A stretch of DNA of 64,000 nt. Source: a bacterium. Its GTDB lineage: Bacteria > Arandabacterota > Arandabacteria > Arandabacterales > Arandabacteraceae. The DNA lies in assembly GCA_029933125.1 (NCBI GenBank), contig JAOZOU010000003.1, positions 1 through 64,000 of the forward strand. The letters are read 5' to 3'. Position 1 is the stretch's first letter. Each line of letters starts with the position of its first letter. The notes below the pieces were generated by a model that made no database searches, was not told the origin of the DNA, and worked only from the letters and a program-made list of their open reading frames with translations. Below are positions 36,308 through 40,674 of this stretch, piece by piece. The translations under genes were made by a program, and so were the position numbers.

Positions 36308-36691
36308 GTGGGTAAGTTTTCATTGGCACCAAAAGCCCTGGCTAGAGCTTGTTGCAAACTAGCACTCGATAAGAAAGCAGAAGATGTTATCATCATGGAT
36401 CTCAGAAAGATGCCTGCGCCAACTGACTACTTCGTTATCTGTAGTGCAACAACTGACAAGCAGGTCAAAGCAATTGTTGACAACATTGTTGAGGGAACTG
36501 AGGGGCGAGGGCATCGTCCGTGGCATATTGAAGGCTATAGCGCTCTGAAGTGGGTGCTCATTGACTATGTTGATGTCGTCGTGCACGTCTTTCAAGATGA
36601 TGTGAGAAAATTCTACTCCCTCGAGACACTTTGGGGTGACGCTCCTGTGGAGGAGGTAAAGCCTAAGCTGAGAAGGAAACGGAGACTATGA
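36308..36691 (+). CDS. rsfS: Ribosomal silencing factor RsfS (Iojap family)
   Basis: 127 residues; binds ribosomal protein uL14 and blocks subunit joining in poor nutrient conditions. Motifs: ALDKKAEDVIIMDLR, TDYFVICSATTDKQVKAI and VDVVVHVFQDDVRKFYSLETLW. The start is uncertain: GTG at 36308 lies inside the best ribosome site (GAGGAGGTG, 36302-36310), so TTG at 36323 may be used instead. The end overlaps argS (ATGA). Confidence 0.92.
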   Translation: MGKFSLAPKALARACCKLALDKKAEDVIIMDLRKMPAPTDYFVICSATTDKQVKAIVDNIVEGTEGRGHRPWHIEGYSALKWVLIDYVDVVVHVFQDDVRKFYSLETLWGDAPVEEVKPKLRRKRRL

Positions 36692-38670
36692 CACTTAGAG
36701 AGCATCTCCAAACCCTCGTGCTTGAGGTGCTTAATCGCAAGTACACGCAAGTCAAGTCGATTAGATTTGACGTAAGCAAGCCGCGTGAGAAATCTTTTGG
36801 GGATTTTGCTACCAATGTTGCAATGGTTGCTGCCAAGCAACTCAGAATAGATCCCATGGAAATTGCTGAAGCCATTGCACCTGAGCTGCGTAGCTGTGAC
36901 GTTATAGAGGATGCAAGTGTTGCCCGACCTGGCTTTATAAACATAACTCTTACACGTAGGGCATACCTGGATAAGCTCGCTGACATCTTGTCCACTCAAG
37001 ATGATGAAGCCTATGGCTATGCTGACCTTGGCCAGGGCAAGAGGGTTCAAGTTGAGTTTGTAAGTGCTAATCCAACAGGTCCGCTCAATGTTGTCAATGC
37101 AAGAGCTGCAGCAGTTGGAGATGCACTTGTGAGGCTTCTCAAAAGGGTTGGCTATGATGCCCAGAGCGAATTCTATGTAAACGACTCAGGTACTCAGGTT
37201 GAGCTTCTCGGGGAATCGCTTAAAGCACGCTTTCAGGAGCTCCTCGGTAGAGCATCCGAGATTCCCGATGGGGGCTACCCGGGAACCTATCTCATAGATA
37301 TAGCCAAGAAAGTGATTAAGCTTAGCACCGAGGCAGATGCTCTTGACAGTGGCTTTGCCATAGCTTCTCAAGGTTCTCCAGTTGACTTCTTGAAGGAAGC
37401 CTGTAGCAAGACGGGCCAGACTCCGGCCTCCATCCAGGCATTTATAGATTTCATCGCGACACTTGATCCTTCAAGGATGTGCCATGCTATCTCGCTTTAC
37501 ATCTGCCATCAGACCACAAAGAGGGCAGGATTCAATGCTATTTGTAGTCAGCTTCAGGATCTCAAGATGCTGATTACCCCACAGAGTGGTGAGCGAAGAG
37601 CAGGAGGGGCGAAAGCCGCGGATGTCTTCCTCGGTGAGGTCTATGATGGGTGGCATTTCGATTTCTCGAGATTTGCAGTTGAGGAGATTGTTGAAGAGCA
37701 ACAGAGGAGTCTTCAACGCTTCGGCAAGCGTCCTGAAGGTGGATTGCGCTTCGATTGCTGGTTCAGGGAGTCGTCCCTCACGGAGGAAGTGGACAAACTT
37801 GCTCAACTTCTCATCTCCGATGGTAGGTTCATTGCTCAAAAGGACGGAGCTATCTGGCTTCGTAGCACAGGTGGAGAGGAAAGCGAAGAGTGGGTAATAA
37901 GGAGATCTTCAGGACAACCAACCTATTTCCTTTCTGATATCGCCTATCACATCAACAAACGTCGCAGGGGATATGAGCGTGTGATAGATATCTGGGGTCC
38001 AGATCATCACGGGCACGTTAAGCGTATGCAGAGAGCTATGGAGATCGTTGCGAATCTTCTTCCTGATCTTAATTTGAGACCTGACTGGTTGACAATCCTG
38101 ATTGCTCAGCAGGTAAATCTTCTCAAAGACGGTAAGCGTATCCAGATGTCAAAGCGAGGAGGAGAATACGTTACGCTCGATGATCTCATCAGAGAGGTTG
38201 GGGCGGATGTTGCTCGCTTTTTCTTCCTTATGAGAAGATGCAACAGTCACCTTGATTTTGACATCGATCTCGCCAAGAAGACCTCCGATGAGAATCCAGT
38301 CTATTATGTTCAATATGCCCATGCTCGTATCTGTAGCATCATCGATTTTGCAAAGAAGCAGGGCTATGAAGAAGTGCCTCAAAAAAGCAATCTCGAGCTT
38401 CTCTCAGCCGATGAGGAGATTGATCTCCTCAAGGCTCTTGCCGACTTTGAGGATCTTGTAATAGCCAGTGCCAATGCGCTGGAGCCTCATCGCTTCACTT
38501 CCTATCTCATCGACCTTGCAAGCAAGTTCCACAGGTTCTATCACAATCATCGTGTGGTTACTGAGGATCCTGAGATCACAAAGGCAAGGCTTTGTCTTTG
38601 TCTTGGGGTAAGAACCGTTATAAGAAGCGCCTTTTCAATAATGGGTATTTCTGCACCTGAGTCAATGTAG
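36688..38670 (+). CDS. argS: Arginyl-tRNA synthetase with altered HIGH motif and a large insertion
   Basis: Charges tRNA-Arg with arginine; 660 residues against the usual 550-590. The N-terminal additional domain (residues 1-~110) and SANPTGPL before the active site are typical, as are FYVNDSGTQ, DIWGPDHHGHVKRM and the final anticodon-binding domain. The class I HIGH signature, usually His-Val-Gly-His, reads Asn134-Val-Val-Asn137. The KMSKS counterpart is IQMSKRGGE near 486. Residues ~214-330 hold about 80-100 extra residues before FDCWFRES. It appears to be the only argS here; whether a second exists elsewhere is unknown. Confidence 0.93.
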   Translation: MTLREHLQTLVLEVLNRKYTQVKSIRFDVSKPREKSFGDFATNVAMVAAKQLRIDPMEIAEAIAPELRSCDVIEDASVARPGFINITLTRRAYLDKLADILSTQDDEAYGYADLGQGKRVQVEFVSANPTGPLNVVNARAAAVGDALVRLLKRVGYDAQSEFYVNDSGTQVELLGESLKARFQELLGRASEIPDGGYPGTYLIDIAKKVIKLSTEADALDSGFAIASQGSPVDFLKEACSKTGQTPASIQAFIDFIATLDPSRMCHAISLYICHQTTKRAGFNAICSQLQDLKMLITPQSGERRAGGAKAADVFLGEVYDGWHFDFSRFAVEEIVEEQQRSLQRFGKRPEGGLRFDCWFRESSLTEEVDKLAQLLISDGRFIAQKDGAIWLRSTGGEESEEWVIRRSSGQPTYFLSDIAYHINKRRRGYERVIDIWGPDHHGHVKRMQRAMEIVANLLPDLNLRPDWLTILIAQQVNLLKDGKRIQMSKRGGEYVTLDDLIREVGADVARFFFLMRRCNSHLDFDIDLAKKTSDENPVYYVQYAHARICSIIDFAKKQGYEEVPQKSNLELLSADEEIDLLKALADFEDLVIASANALEPHRFTSYLIDLASKFHRFYHNHRVVTEDPEITKARLCLCLGVRTVIRSAFSIMGISAPESM

Positions 38671-38681
38671 GGGTTGACCGG

Positions 38682-39026
38682 ATGTACTGTCCTAAATGTG
38701 GTGCTGAGTATCGTCAAGGATTCACAAAGTGTGCCGACTGTGGTGTGGATCTTGTCTGGGAGAAGCCTCAGATTGAGGATCGAGTTGAGTATGTTGAATA
38801 CACAGAGGTCCTGAGAACATTCAACCCAGGTGACATTGCCATCTTACGATCGGTGCTTGATGGTGGCGGTGTCACCTACTACATAAAGGGCGAGGGCTTC
38901 GGCAATATCAGACCACTCGCCGAGCCAGCTAGTCTCATGGTCAGAAAAGACCAGGTCGAAAGAGCCCTTGAACTGATCAAGCCTCTAAAGCTACGCTACC
39001 GAGGCATCTCAGGTGGCTCAGGATGA
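38682..39026 (+). CDS. Zinc-ribbon plus DUF2007-like protein
   Basis: 114 residues. The N-terminus is a zinc ribbon (CPKCGAEYRQGFTKCADCG), followed by a domain like DUF2007 (AILRSVLDGGGVTYYI, LMVRKDQVERALELI), a small fold resembling PII-type or signal-transducing proteins. Its function is not known. ATG at 38682, 12 bases after argS; the end overlaps the next gene by 14 bases. Confidence 0.75.
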   Translation: MYCPKCGAEYRQGFTKCADCGVDLVWEKPQIEDRVEYVEYTEVLRTFNPGDIAILRSVLDGGGVTYYIKGEGFGNIRPLAEPASLMVRKDQVERALELIKPLKLRYRGISGGSG

Positions 39027-40674
39027 AAGAATTGCAACTTTGATGCAGTGTTCCAGTACGAAAATGTTCGGCACCAAGCTTTCGGCCAGAACCTTCAGGC
39101 TCATTGCAATTGCTTGCACCATCTACTGCATCCTCTTTATCTTTCGGACAAGTTTCGTCATAAACGGTGAAAGATACTTTAGCCTCTTTGACGACGCAAT
39201 GATCTCTATGAGATACGCCAAGAATCTTGCCAGTGGTGCTGGCCTTGTTTGGAATCCAGGCGAAAGGGTTGAGGGCTATACCAATCTTCTCTGGACACTC
39301 TATATGGCACTGCTTCACCTGCTTCCGATTTCAGCCTCGAAGATAAGCTTGGTTGTTCAGGTGAGTGGGGCTGCCTTGATAGTTGTCAATCTTGTGATCG
39401 TGCGAAACCTGGCTGAGATGATCTTCCCGGGATCACGATTTACCAGCTTTGGGGCAGTTCTGCTTGCTGGCTTCTATCTACCTCTCATCGGTTGGACGCT
39501 TCAGGGGATGGAGGTGGGGCTTCTAGCTCTTATTGTCACGCTGGCTGTCTACCTAACCATCCGTAACACTCTTCGGCGCAAGTTCAGTCTGTTACCCTAC
39601 ATAGTGCTCACGATAGGCATGTTTGTGAGACCTGATATGGGCGTGCCCTATCTGGTCATCCTTATCTGGACCGCAATCATCGACCGAAAGATGAGAAAGT
39701 GTCATCTCATCTGGGGACTTTCTTTGCTGGCTCTTGCCATAGTGAGTCAAACGGTCTTCCGTTTGCTCTACTACGGGGATATTCTGCCCAACACCTATTA
39801 TCTCAAGCTCACAGGCTTTCCCCTCATCTATCGGCTTACCCGTGGGCTCTATGTTTCATTTGTGTTCATCTGGCGGATGGGTTGGATCATCTTCCTCATA
39901 CCCTTCGCGATTCTTATCAGACCACGCAACAAGCCAGCGACTTTGCTGCTTGCTGTCTTCTTGGGTCAGCTGGGCTATAGCATCTATGTTGGTGGTGACG
40001 CCTGGGAATCCTGGGGTGGCAGCAACAGGTATGTTGCCATTGCAATGCCATCGTTCTTTGTGGTTTTCTTCGGGGCTTTAGCCTGGCTTGGAAGGCTCCT
40101 CAAAGACAACCTTATTGCTAAGAAGGAGCTGAGCTACCTTGGCTCTCCTCAGACTGAACGCAGAGTGAAGGTTGTCGCACTTGTATTGTGTTTCATCAGT
40201 TTCAATGCAATCTATGGACCCGCTGCCCTTACTGAGCTGTTGCTACTAAAGAAAACACTTCACGTCGATAAGAATGAGAAGATGGTTGAGCGGGCACTTG
40301 TCCTCACAACGATAACCGATCCCCAGGCCAGAATAGCTGTCGTCTGGGACGGTGCCATACCCTACTTCAGCGGACGCAGAGCGATAAGCATCCTCGGCAA
40401 GAACGATAGGCATATAGCCAGGCTCAAGATGCGACTTCCAAAGGGACCTGGAAAAGTTGTTGCTTTCTACCCCGGTCATCTCAAGTGGGACTATGCCTAC
40501 TCGATTGGCAGGTTACAACCCGATGTTGTTGTACATCTCTGGCAGGCACCTGAAGAAGCTATGCCCTACCTTGTTTCCGATTACGTTGAATTGTCACTCA
40601 AGGGTATGAGTTTCTATCTCCGCAAGACCTCCCCGCACATTCTTTGGGACCGTGTGCGCCAGCTGGCAAGCTGA
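39013..40674 (+). CDS. Polytopic membrane glycosyltransferase (GT-C fold)
   Basis: 553 residues with about eleven to twelve membrane helices. After the first helix comes the loop FSLFDDAMISMRYAKNLA and GLVWNPGERVEGYTNLLW; the paired Asp in DDAMI is the GT-C catalytic signature, and the whole pattern resembles AftB-like arabinosyltransferases and related polyprenyl-phosphate-sugar enzymes. A soluble domain of ~150 residues at the C-terminus contains AVVWDGAIPYFSGR. It probably glycosylates an envelope polymer from the outer face of the membrane. GTG at 39013 is taken as the start; ATG at 39043 is an alternative. Donor and acceptor are unknown. Confidence 0.8.
   Translation: MAQDERIATLMQCSSTKMFGTKLSARTFRLIAIACTIYCILFIFRTSFVINGERYFSLFDDAMISMRYAKNLASGAGLVWNPGERVEGYTNLLWTLYMALLHLLPISASKISLVVQVSGAALIVVNLVIVRNLAEMIFPGSRFTSFGAVLLAGFYLPLIGWTLQGMEVGLLALIVTLAVYLTIRNTLRRKFSLLPYIVLTIGMFVRPDMGVPYLVILIWTAIIDRKMRKCHLIWGLSLLALAIVSQTVFRLLYYGDILPNTYYLKLTGFPLIYRLTRGLYVSFVFIWRMGWIIFLIPFAILIRPRNKPATLLLAVFLGQLGYSIYVGGDAWESWGGSNRYVAIAMPSFFVVFFGALAWLGRLLKDNLIAKKELSYLGSPQTERRVKVVALVLCFISFNAIYGPAALTELLLLKKTLHVDKNEKMVERALVLTTITDPQARIAVVWDGAIPYFSGRRAISILGKNDRHIARLKMRLPKGPGKVVAFYPGHLKWDYAYSIGRLQPDVVVHLWQAPEEAMPYLVSDYVELSLKGMSFYLRKTSPHILWDRVRQLAS

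Follow-up and report, generated by a model that had tools for sequence, protein, structure and literature searches.

Textbooks define class I aminoacyl-tRNA synthetases by the HIGH motif, whose histidines are regarded as necessary for stabilisation of the transition state. The window analysed here, a stretch of 64,000 nt of bacterial DNA (contig JAOZOU010000003.1, positions 1 to 64,000), encodes an arginyl-tRNA synthetase (ArgRS) in which both histidines are replaced. This raises the question whether such an enzyme can be the one that charges tRNA with arginine in this organism, and which other residues have changed together with the motif.

An ArgRS Gene with an Altered HIGH Motif

The argS gene (36688..38670, + strand) encodes a protein of 660 aa, which was matched over its full length by TIGR00456 in the profile search (352.5 bits, cut-off 261.65). 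The ArgRS N-terminal domain (PF03485, 71.4 bits), the catalytic domain (PF00750) and the DALR anticodon-binding domain (DALR_1, PF05746, 119.8 bits; residues 541–660, 38308..38667, +) were all found. A HUP/Rossmann catalytic fold is predicted from domain-wide sequence homology; AlphaFold2 applied to two sequences, that of the window and that of L002, the sole relative found in the contig collection, gave a pLDDT of 36 and no usable model.

At the position of the HIGH motif, residues 134–137 read N-V-V-N (37087..37098, +; codons AAT GTT GTC AAT), and the class I HxGH signature is therefore absent. By alignment these residues correspond to H159, A160, G161 and H162 of yeast ArgRS. The class I KMSKS signature is present as QMSKR (residues 486–490), with the KMSK-like M487-S-K489-R490 at 38146..38157 (+). 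An earlier note on this DNA had reported the replacement of both histidines, with the flanks SANPTGPL and AAAVGD and a KMSKS-like SKRGGE region kept. The codons and the sequence confirm this description (SANPTGPL-NVVN-ARAAAVGD at 37060..37122, +; QMSKRGGE at residues 486–493). The change is larger than the two histidines named there: the otherwise invariant, adenine-facing Gly at the third motif position is Val, and the two Gly that follow the motif are replaced by Ala (HGRG to NARA). Position 438, moreover, is occupied by Pro (GPDHHG), a site at which Ala prevails in enzymes of the HIGH type.

The reading frame has no internal stop and lies inside a contig of 356 kb, and at this position the ArgRS of relatives from the family, order and class of the window reads NVVS or NIVS. 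A frameshift or an assembly error thus does not account for NVVN. The catalytic domain also carries an insertion of about 100 aa (residues 221–325, 37348..37662, +), recognised from the spacing between residues 213 and 351, which lie 139 aa apart in the window ArgRS versus about 38 in most ArgRS. This insertion is restricted to the class of the window and varies in length, shorter insertions occur in some other members of the subfamily, and no convincing domain match was obtained for it.

Directly upstream, rsfS for the ribosomal silencing factor (36308..36691, +; PF02410) overlaps argS, and this neighbourhood is conserved in three further genomes (G003, G004, G007). Downstream, a gene for a predicted membrane protein of 553 aa without Pfam match (39013–40674) overlaps the end of a gene for a zinc-ribbon/DUF2007 protein (38682–39026). 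No Rfam matches and no tRNAs were found in the window.

The sister genus g2 of the same family has an ArgRS of the other bacterial type (L097 in G005, L098 in G002), with APNIAKPF-SVGH and MSTR, encoded at a locus elsewhere than rsfS. In G002 about 190 bases follow rsfS up to the contig end without an argS start, whereas argS overlaps rsfS in the window; the completeness of G002 and G005 is 87% and 73%, respectively. The simplest reading is that the argS found in the window was displaced in g2 by another argS elsewhere in the genome, which would argue for both types doing the same job.

The Altered Gene Is the Only argS Found

The earlier note had offered a second argS as one way to explain the altered motif. 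The genome search contradicts this: profile searches with PF00750 and TIGR00456 found one argS and no second one in the genome of the window (3.2 Mb, 96.7% complete). The only other match was a 23-bit hit of the class I HIGH region inside LeuRS, which was assigned by motif and length. Since ArgRS was matched in 14 of 14 control genomes, the search is able to see ArgRS of all kinds. No second argS above the cut-off was present in the examined genomes with the variant either. What else was matched there came from the HIGH region of class I enzymes or was a short fragment, such as a 70 aa piece with a stop in G174 and a piece at a contig end in G168. Complete or nearly complete genomes of the examined set, such as those assembled into one contig (G137, G063) or seven contigs (G151), also have a single argS. 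TIGR00456 had no match in five genomes of at least 90% completeness (G118, G136, G144, G257, G353), which reflects either a gap or a very divergent ArgRS.

Other class I synthetases encoded in the genome of the window have ordinary motifs (LeuRS and GlnRS HIGH, CysRS HVGH, TyrRS HLGH, ValRS TMGH, TrpRS HLGN), which indicates a change specific to ArgRS and not a general decay. The only other class I enzyme that departs is IleRS (L188; G000:C55:7259-9070), which shows the known variant GVHH.

The Motif Is Widespread and Probably Arose Once

We scanned 389 bacterial genomes, each with a completeness of at least 90%, for the degenerate DNA pattern P-x-N-[VIM]-V-x-A-R. The pattern matched in 43 genomes, at most once per genome, compared to 3 for the reversed pattern used as control. 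The matches in G215 (contig C10), G233 and G255 lay off argS. G233 (argS with TVAA) and G255 (argS with HVGH) were dropped from the count, G215 was kept because its own argS has NAVN, and G227 (NVVS with ART) was added. With matches placed on argS and the genes read, the NxV[S/N] ArgRS is present in at least 42 of the 389 genomes, from about 27 families. The motif is thus a natural variant of wide distribution. The option of a natural variant using other residues, also raised in the earlier note, is hence the one that gains support: the variant is the only argS, and N134 and V136 occur in all 46 variant sequences compared. The existence of similar variants in certain phyla, also mentioned there as a possibility, is borne out by the spread over families.

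In a non-redundant set of 84 PTG-type ArgRS, in which variants were over-sampled on purpose, we counted NVVS 30 times, NIVS 11 times, NVVN four times, NAVN once and HxGH 31 times; the seven others have TIGH, TVGH, HVGN, TIGS or TVAA. Leptospira ArgRS may carry NIVS as well. The earlier note had named as counter-evidence a motif common among characterised active ArgRS. The motif is common in genomes, but none of the compared ArgRS with solved structures has NxV[S/N] in the alignments, and no paper describing the motif was found in the open-licence literature. Among named ArgRS on plasmid records no NxV motif occurred where the motif was legible, all being HIGH-like or other variants; an NVVS probe reached at best 69% identity in these records. 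Further odd motifs (L029, L094, L138, L176, L179) are TIGS with GPDHHG, TVAA, HVGN, HAAH on a plasmid of Azospirillum brasilense, and HLGG on a Tsukamurella plasmid. At the HIGH motif, ArgRS seems to be less constrained than class I enzymes usually are.

For the phylogeny of ArgRS, both motif regions were left out of the alignment. A free quick tree required five changes of the motif. A tree with the 46 variants constrained to one clade had a log likelihood 84 above that of the free tree (p-AU 0.964), and we preferred it to the five-change history, keeping in mind that the deep backbone of the tree is poorly resolved. The better fit of the constrained tree favours one origin, and the NxV[S/N] ArgRS probably form a clade of single origin. 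L029, which has TIGS together with P438 but Leu instead of Gln at position 475, may be an intermediate.

Residues That Change with the Motif

We compared 46 variant and 31 HxGH enzymes column by column. Position 134 is Asn in all variants and His in all HxGH enzymes, position 136 is Val versus Gly with the same strictness, and position 137 is Ser or Asn versus His. At positions 138 and 140 the variants have Ala and the HxGH enzymes mostly Gly. Outside the motif, P438 of GPDHHG (37999..38001, +) is present in 46 of 46 variants, while the HxGH enzymes have Ala in 26 of 31 cases and never Pro. Position 475 (38110..38112, +; Q475 in the window) is Gln or His in 45 of 46 variants but Leu, Met or Phe in all 31 HxGH enzymes. 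Leu at position 415 in YFLSDIAYH (37930..37932, +) occurs in 37 of 46 variants, and Ala in 24 of 31 HxGH enzymes. The KMSK lysine K489 is found in all variants and in 17 of the 31 HxGH enzymes, with Thr in the rest. The window ArgRS has all six markers of the subfamily (N134, V136, S/N137, P438, Q/H475, K489).

Residues of the arginine site do not follow this pattern. E123 is present in 46 of 46 variants and 30 of 31 HxGH enzymes, and N128, Y413, D417 and H440 are invariant in both groups. By homology to ArgRS structures we take E123, N128, Y413, D417 and H440 to be arginine-binding residues. In yeast ArgRS the backbones of N153 and V405 bracket the adenosine phosphate (PMC5919687). Their counterparts by alignment are N128 (37069-37071, +), the N-terminal bracket, and V476, the C-terminal bracket, whose backbone binds adenine. 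Q475 adjoins V476 and would lie across the pocket from V136, and P438 falls in the GxDH loop. The placement of V136, P438 and Q475 suggests that the changed residues surround ATP and not arginine.

Probably a Working Enzyme with a Rebuilt ATP Pocket

An altered motif with matching changes in the ATP pocket, carried by the only argS in about one ninth of the sampled genomes, argues for an ancient working variant rather than a broken gene. We consider it likely that this protein is the only and functional ArgRS of the organism, belonging to a large subfamily, probably of single origin, in which HIGH became N-[VI]-V-[S/N] along with second-shell changes around ATP. We infer its activity, as well as the role of each residue, from the single-copy state of an essential gene and from the residue comparison.

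Arginine would be held as in other ArgRS, by the retained E123, N128, Y413, D417 and H440. Hydrogen bonds to the phosphates and the ribose of ATP, normally made by the two histidines, could come from Asn134 through its side-chain amide and from Ser/Asn137 through its hydroxyl or amide. Val136 would pack on the adenine where Gly normally gives space, and either the adenine or the helix 1 tip might move slightly. Gln/His475 on the opposite face, formerly Leu, Met or Phe, and Pro438 by the ribose-binding GxDH loop would allow this shift, and the always retained K489 may bear more of the transition-state stabilisation.

Findings on other class I enzymes count against a working variant: mutation of the first His slows activation about 1000-fold, and conservation of the HIGH glycine leaves room for adenine (PMC10485003). 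However, E. coli TrpRS works with TIGN (PMC10201369), so class I enzymes can dispense with both histidines, and IleRS2 is functional with G/AXHH, with a backbone shift of 1.7 Å at position 3 (PMC10485003).

Alternatively, the enzyme could work without the changes at positions 415, 438 and 475 compensating for the lost motif. These would then be neutral and inherited from a common ancestor, and ATP would be bound as in HIGH enzymes, via backbone contacts alone. Since the variants fit one clade, the linked residues amount to a single inherited constellation, and compensation among them is what we infer from their positions; plain shared ancestry could explain the linkage, as the occurrence of P438 without Q475 in L029 illustrates. 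Adenosine contacts in class I enzymes are indeed largely backbone-mediated (PMC5919687), and a LeuRS urzyme study credits backbone elements with much of the transition-state stabilisation (PMC10450160). On the other hand, P438 and N134/V136 are invariant in 46 divergent sequences in which many other differences of the clade have drifted, and position 475 adjoins the adenine-binding backbone residue. We therefore regard neutrality of these changes as rather unlikely.

A more far-reaching version of the working-enzyme reading is that the clade activates arginine without any imidazole in the HIGH motif and with a bulky residue facing adenine, a combination undescribed for class I, and that it was perhaps fixed together with GxHH IleRS under adenylate-mimicking inhibitors. 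As a whole this version is speculative, and we find it doubtful. It touches on the proposal that the motif was selected by a naturally occurring ArgRS inhibitor that mimics ATP or the adenylate, for which there is a direct precedent, since G/AXHH in IleRS2 confers hyper-resistance to mupirocin (PMC10485003). The IleRS of the window genome has GVHH, and GxHH IleRS is enriched among genomes with NxV ArgRS: it occurs in 16 of 42 such genomes versus 29 of the 347 remaining ones (p about 1e-6 in a Fisher test that ignores ancestry). Counted by family it is 10 of 27 versus 21 of 238 (p about 2e-4, ignoring ancestry at phylum level; the total of 265 families was inferred from family labels). However, no inhibitor directed at ArgRS is implicated, NxV and GxHH may be co-inherited in some phyla, and fixation in about 27 families looks ancient, all of which makes selection by an inhibitor quite improbable.

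A dead or moonlighting paralogue, with Arg-tRNA supplied by a different enzyme that the draft genome fails to show, is hardly credible and strongly disfavoured: loss of catalytic residues is a classic sign of a pseudo-enzyme and there is a weak match to the NCBIfam ArgS-related anticodon-binding protein NrtL (127.6 bits, cut-off 340), but each genome of the examined set has one argS, including the three well-assembled genomes named above, and the full domain set is retained with invariant arginine-site residues and KMSK lysine.

The NxV[S/N] form of this known and essential enzyme is a real, ancient and widespread motif variant, which has apparently gone undescribed so far. With a single-copy essential synthetase lacking the HIGH histidines in about one tenth of the sampled bacterial genomes, nature provides a case in which a supposedly indispensable motif is replaced, and P438, Q475 and K489 are candidate partner residues for this replacement. 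The ATP pocket predicted for NxV ArgRS differs from that of ArgRS with solved structures, which may be of use for selective inhibitors.

Comparison with Known Systems

The best solved relative by sequence is ArgRS of Campylobacter jejuni (PDB 3fnr; TIGR00456, KMSKR and SANPTG type). By sequence, both enzymes share the fold domains, the arginine-site residues, the GxDHHG loop, the KMSK lysine and the DALR domain. The C. jejuni enzyme has HIGH, GADHHG and Met475 and lacks the insertion of about 100 aa, whereas the window ArgRS has NVVN, GPDHHG and Gln475. SPNIAK-type ArgRS (E. coli, yeast, G002/G005) catalyse the same reaction and appear to replace the NxV type in genus g2. They form a different subgroup with HxGH, SxGH or GxGH, and with MSTR or KTR instead of the MSK lysine.

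TrpRS of E. coli (TIGN) resembles the window ArgRS in working without either HIGH histidine and in having Asn at position 4 (PMC10201369). Unlike NxV ArgRS it keeps Gly at position 3, and it is a dimeric enzyme of subclass Ic. Activation by TrpRS is independent of tRNA.

The closest precedent is IleRS2 with G/AXHH (Nat Commun 2023, PMC10485003), likewise a natural and widespread class I clade. Both clades are altered at positions 1 and 3 of HIGH, a change that IleRS2 accommodates via a shifted tip of helix 1. In IleRS2 the catalytic His has moved to position 3 and the His at position 4 is kept; this swap does not occur in the ArgRS clade, which has no His in the motif and Val at position 3 in all 46 sequences.
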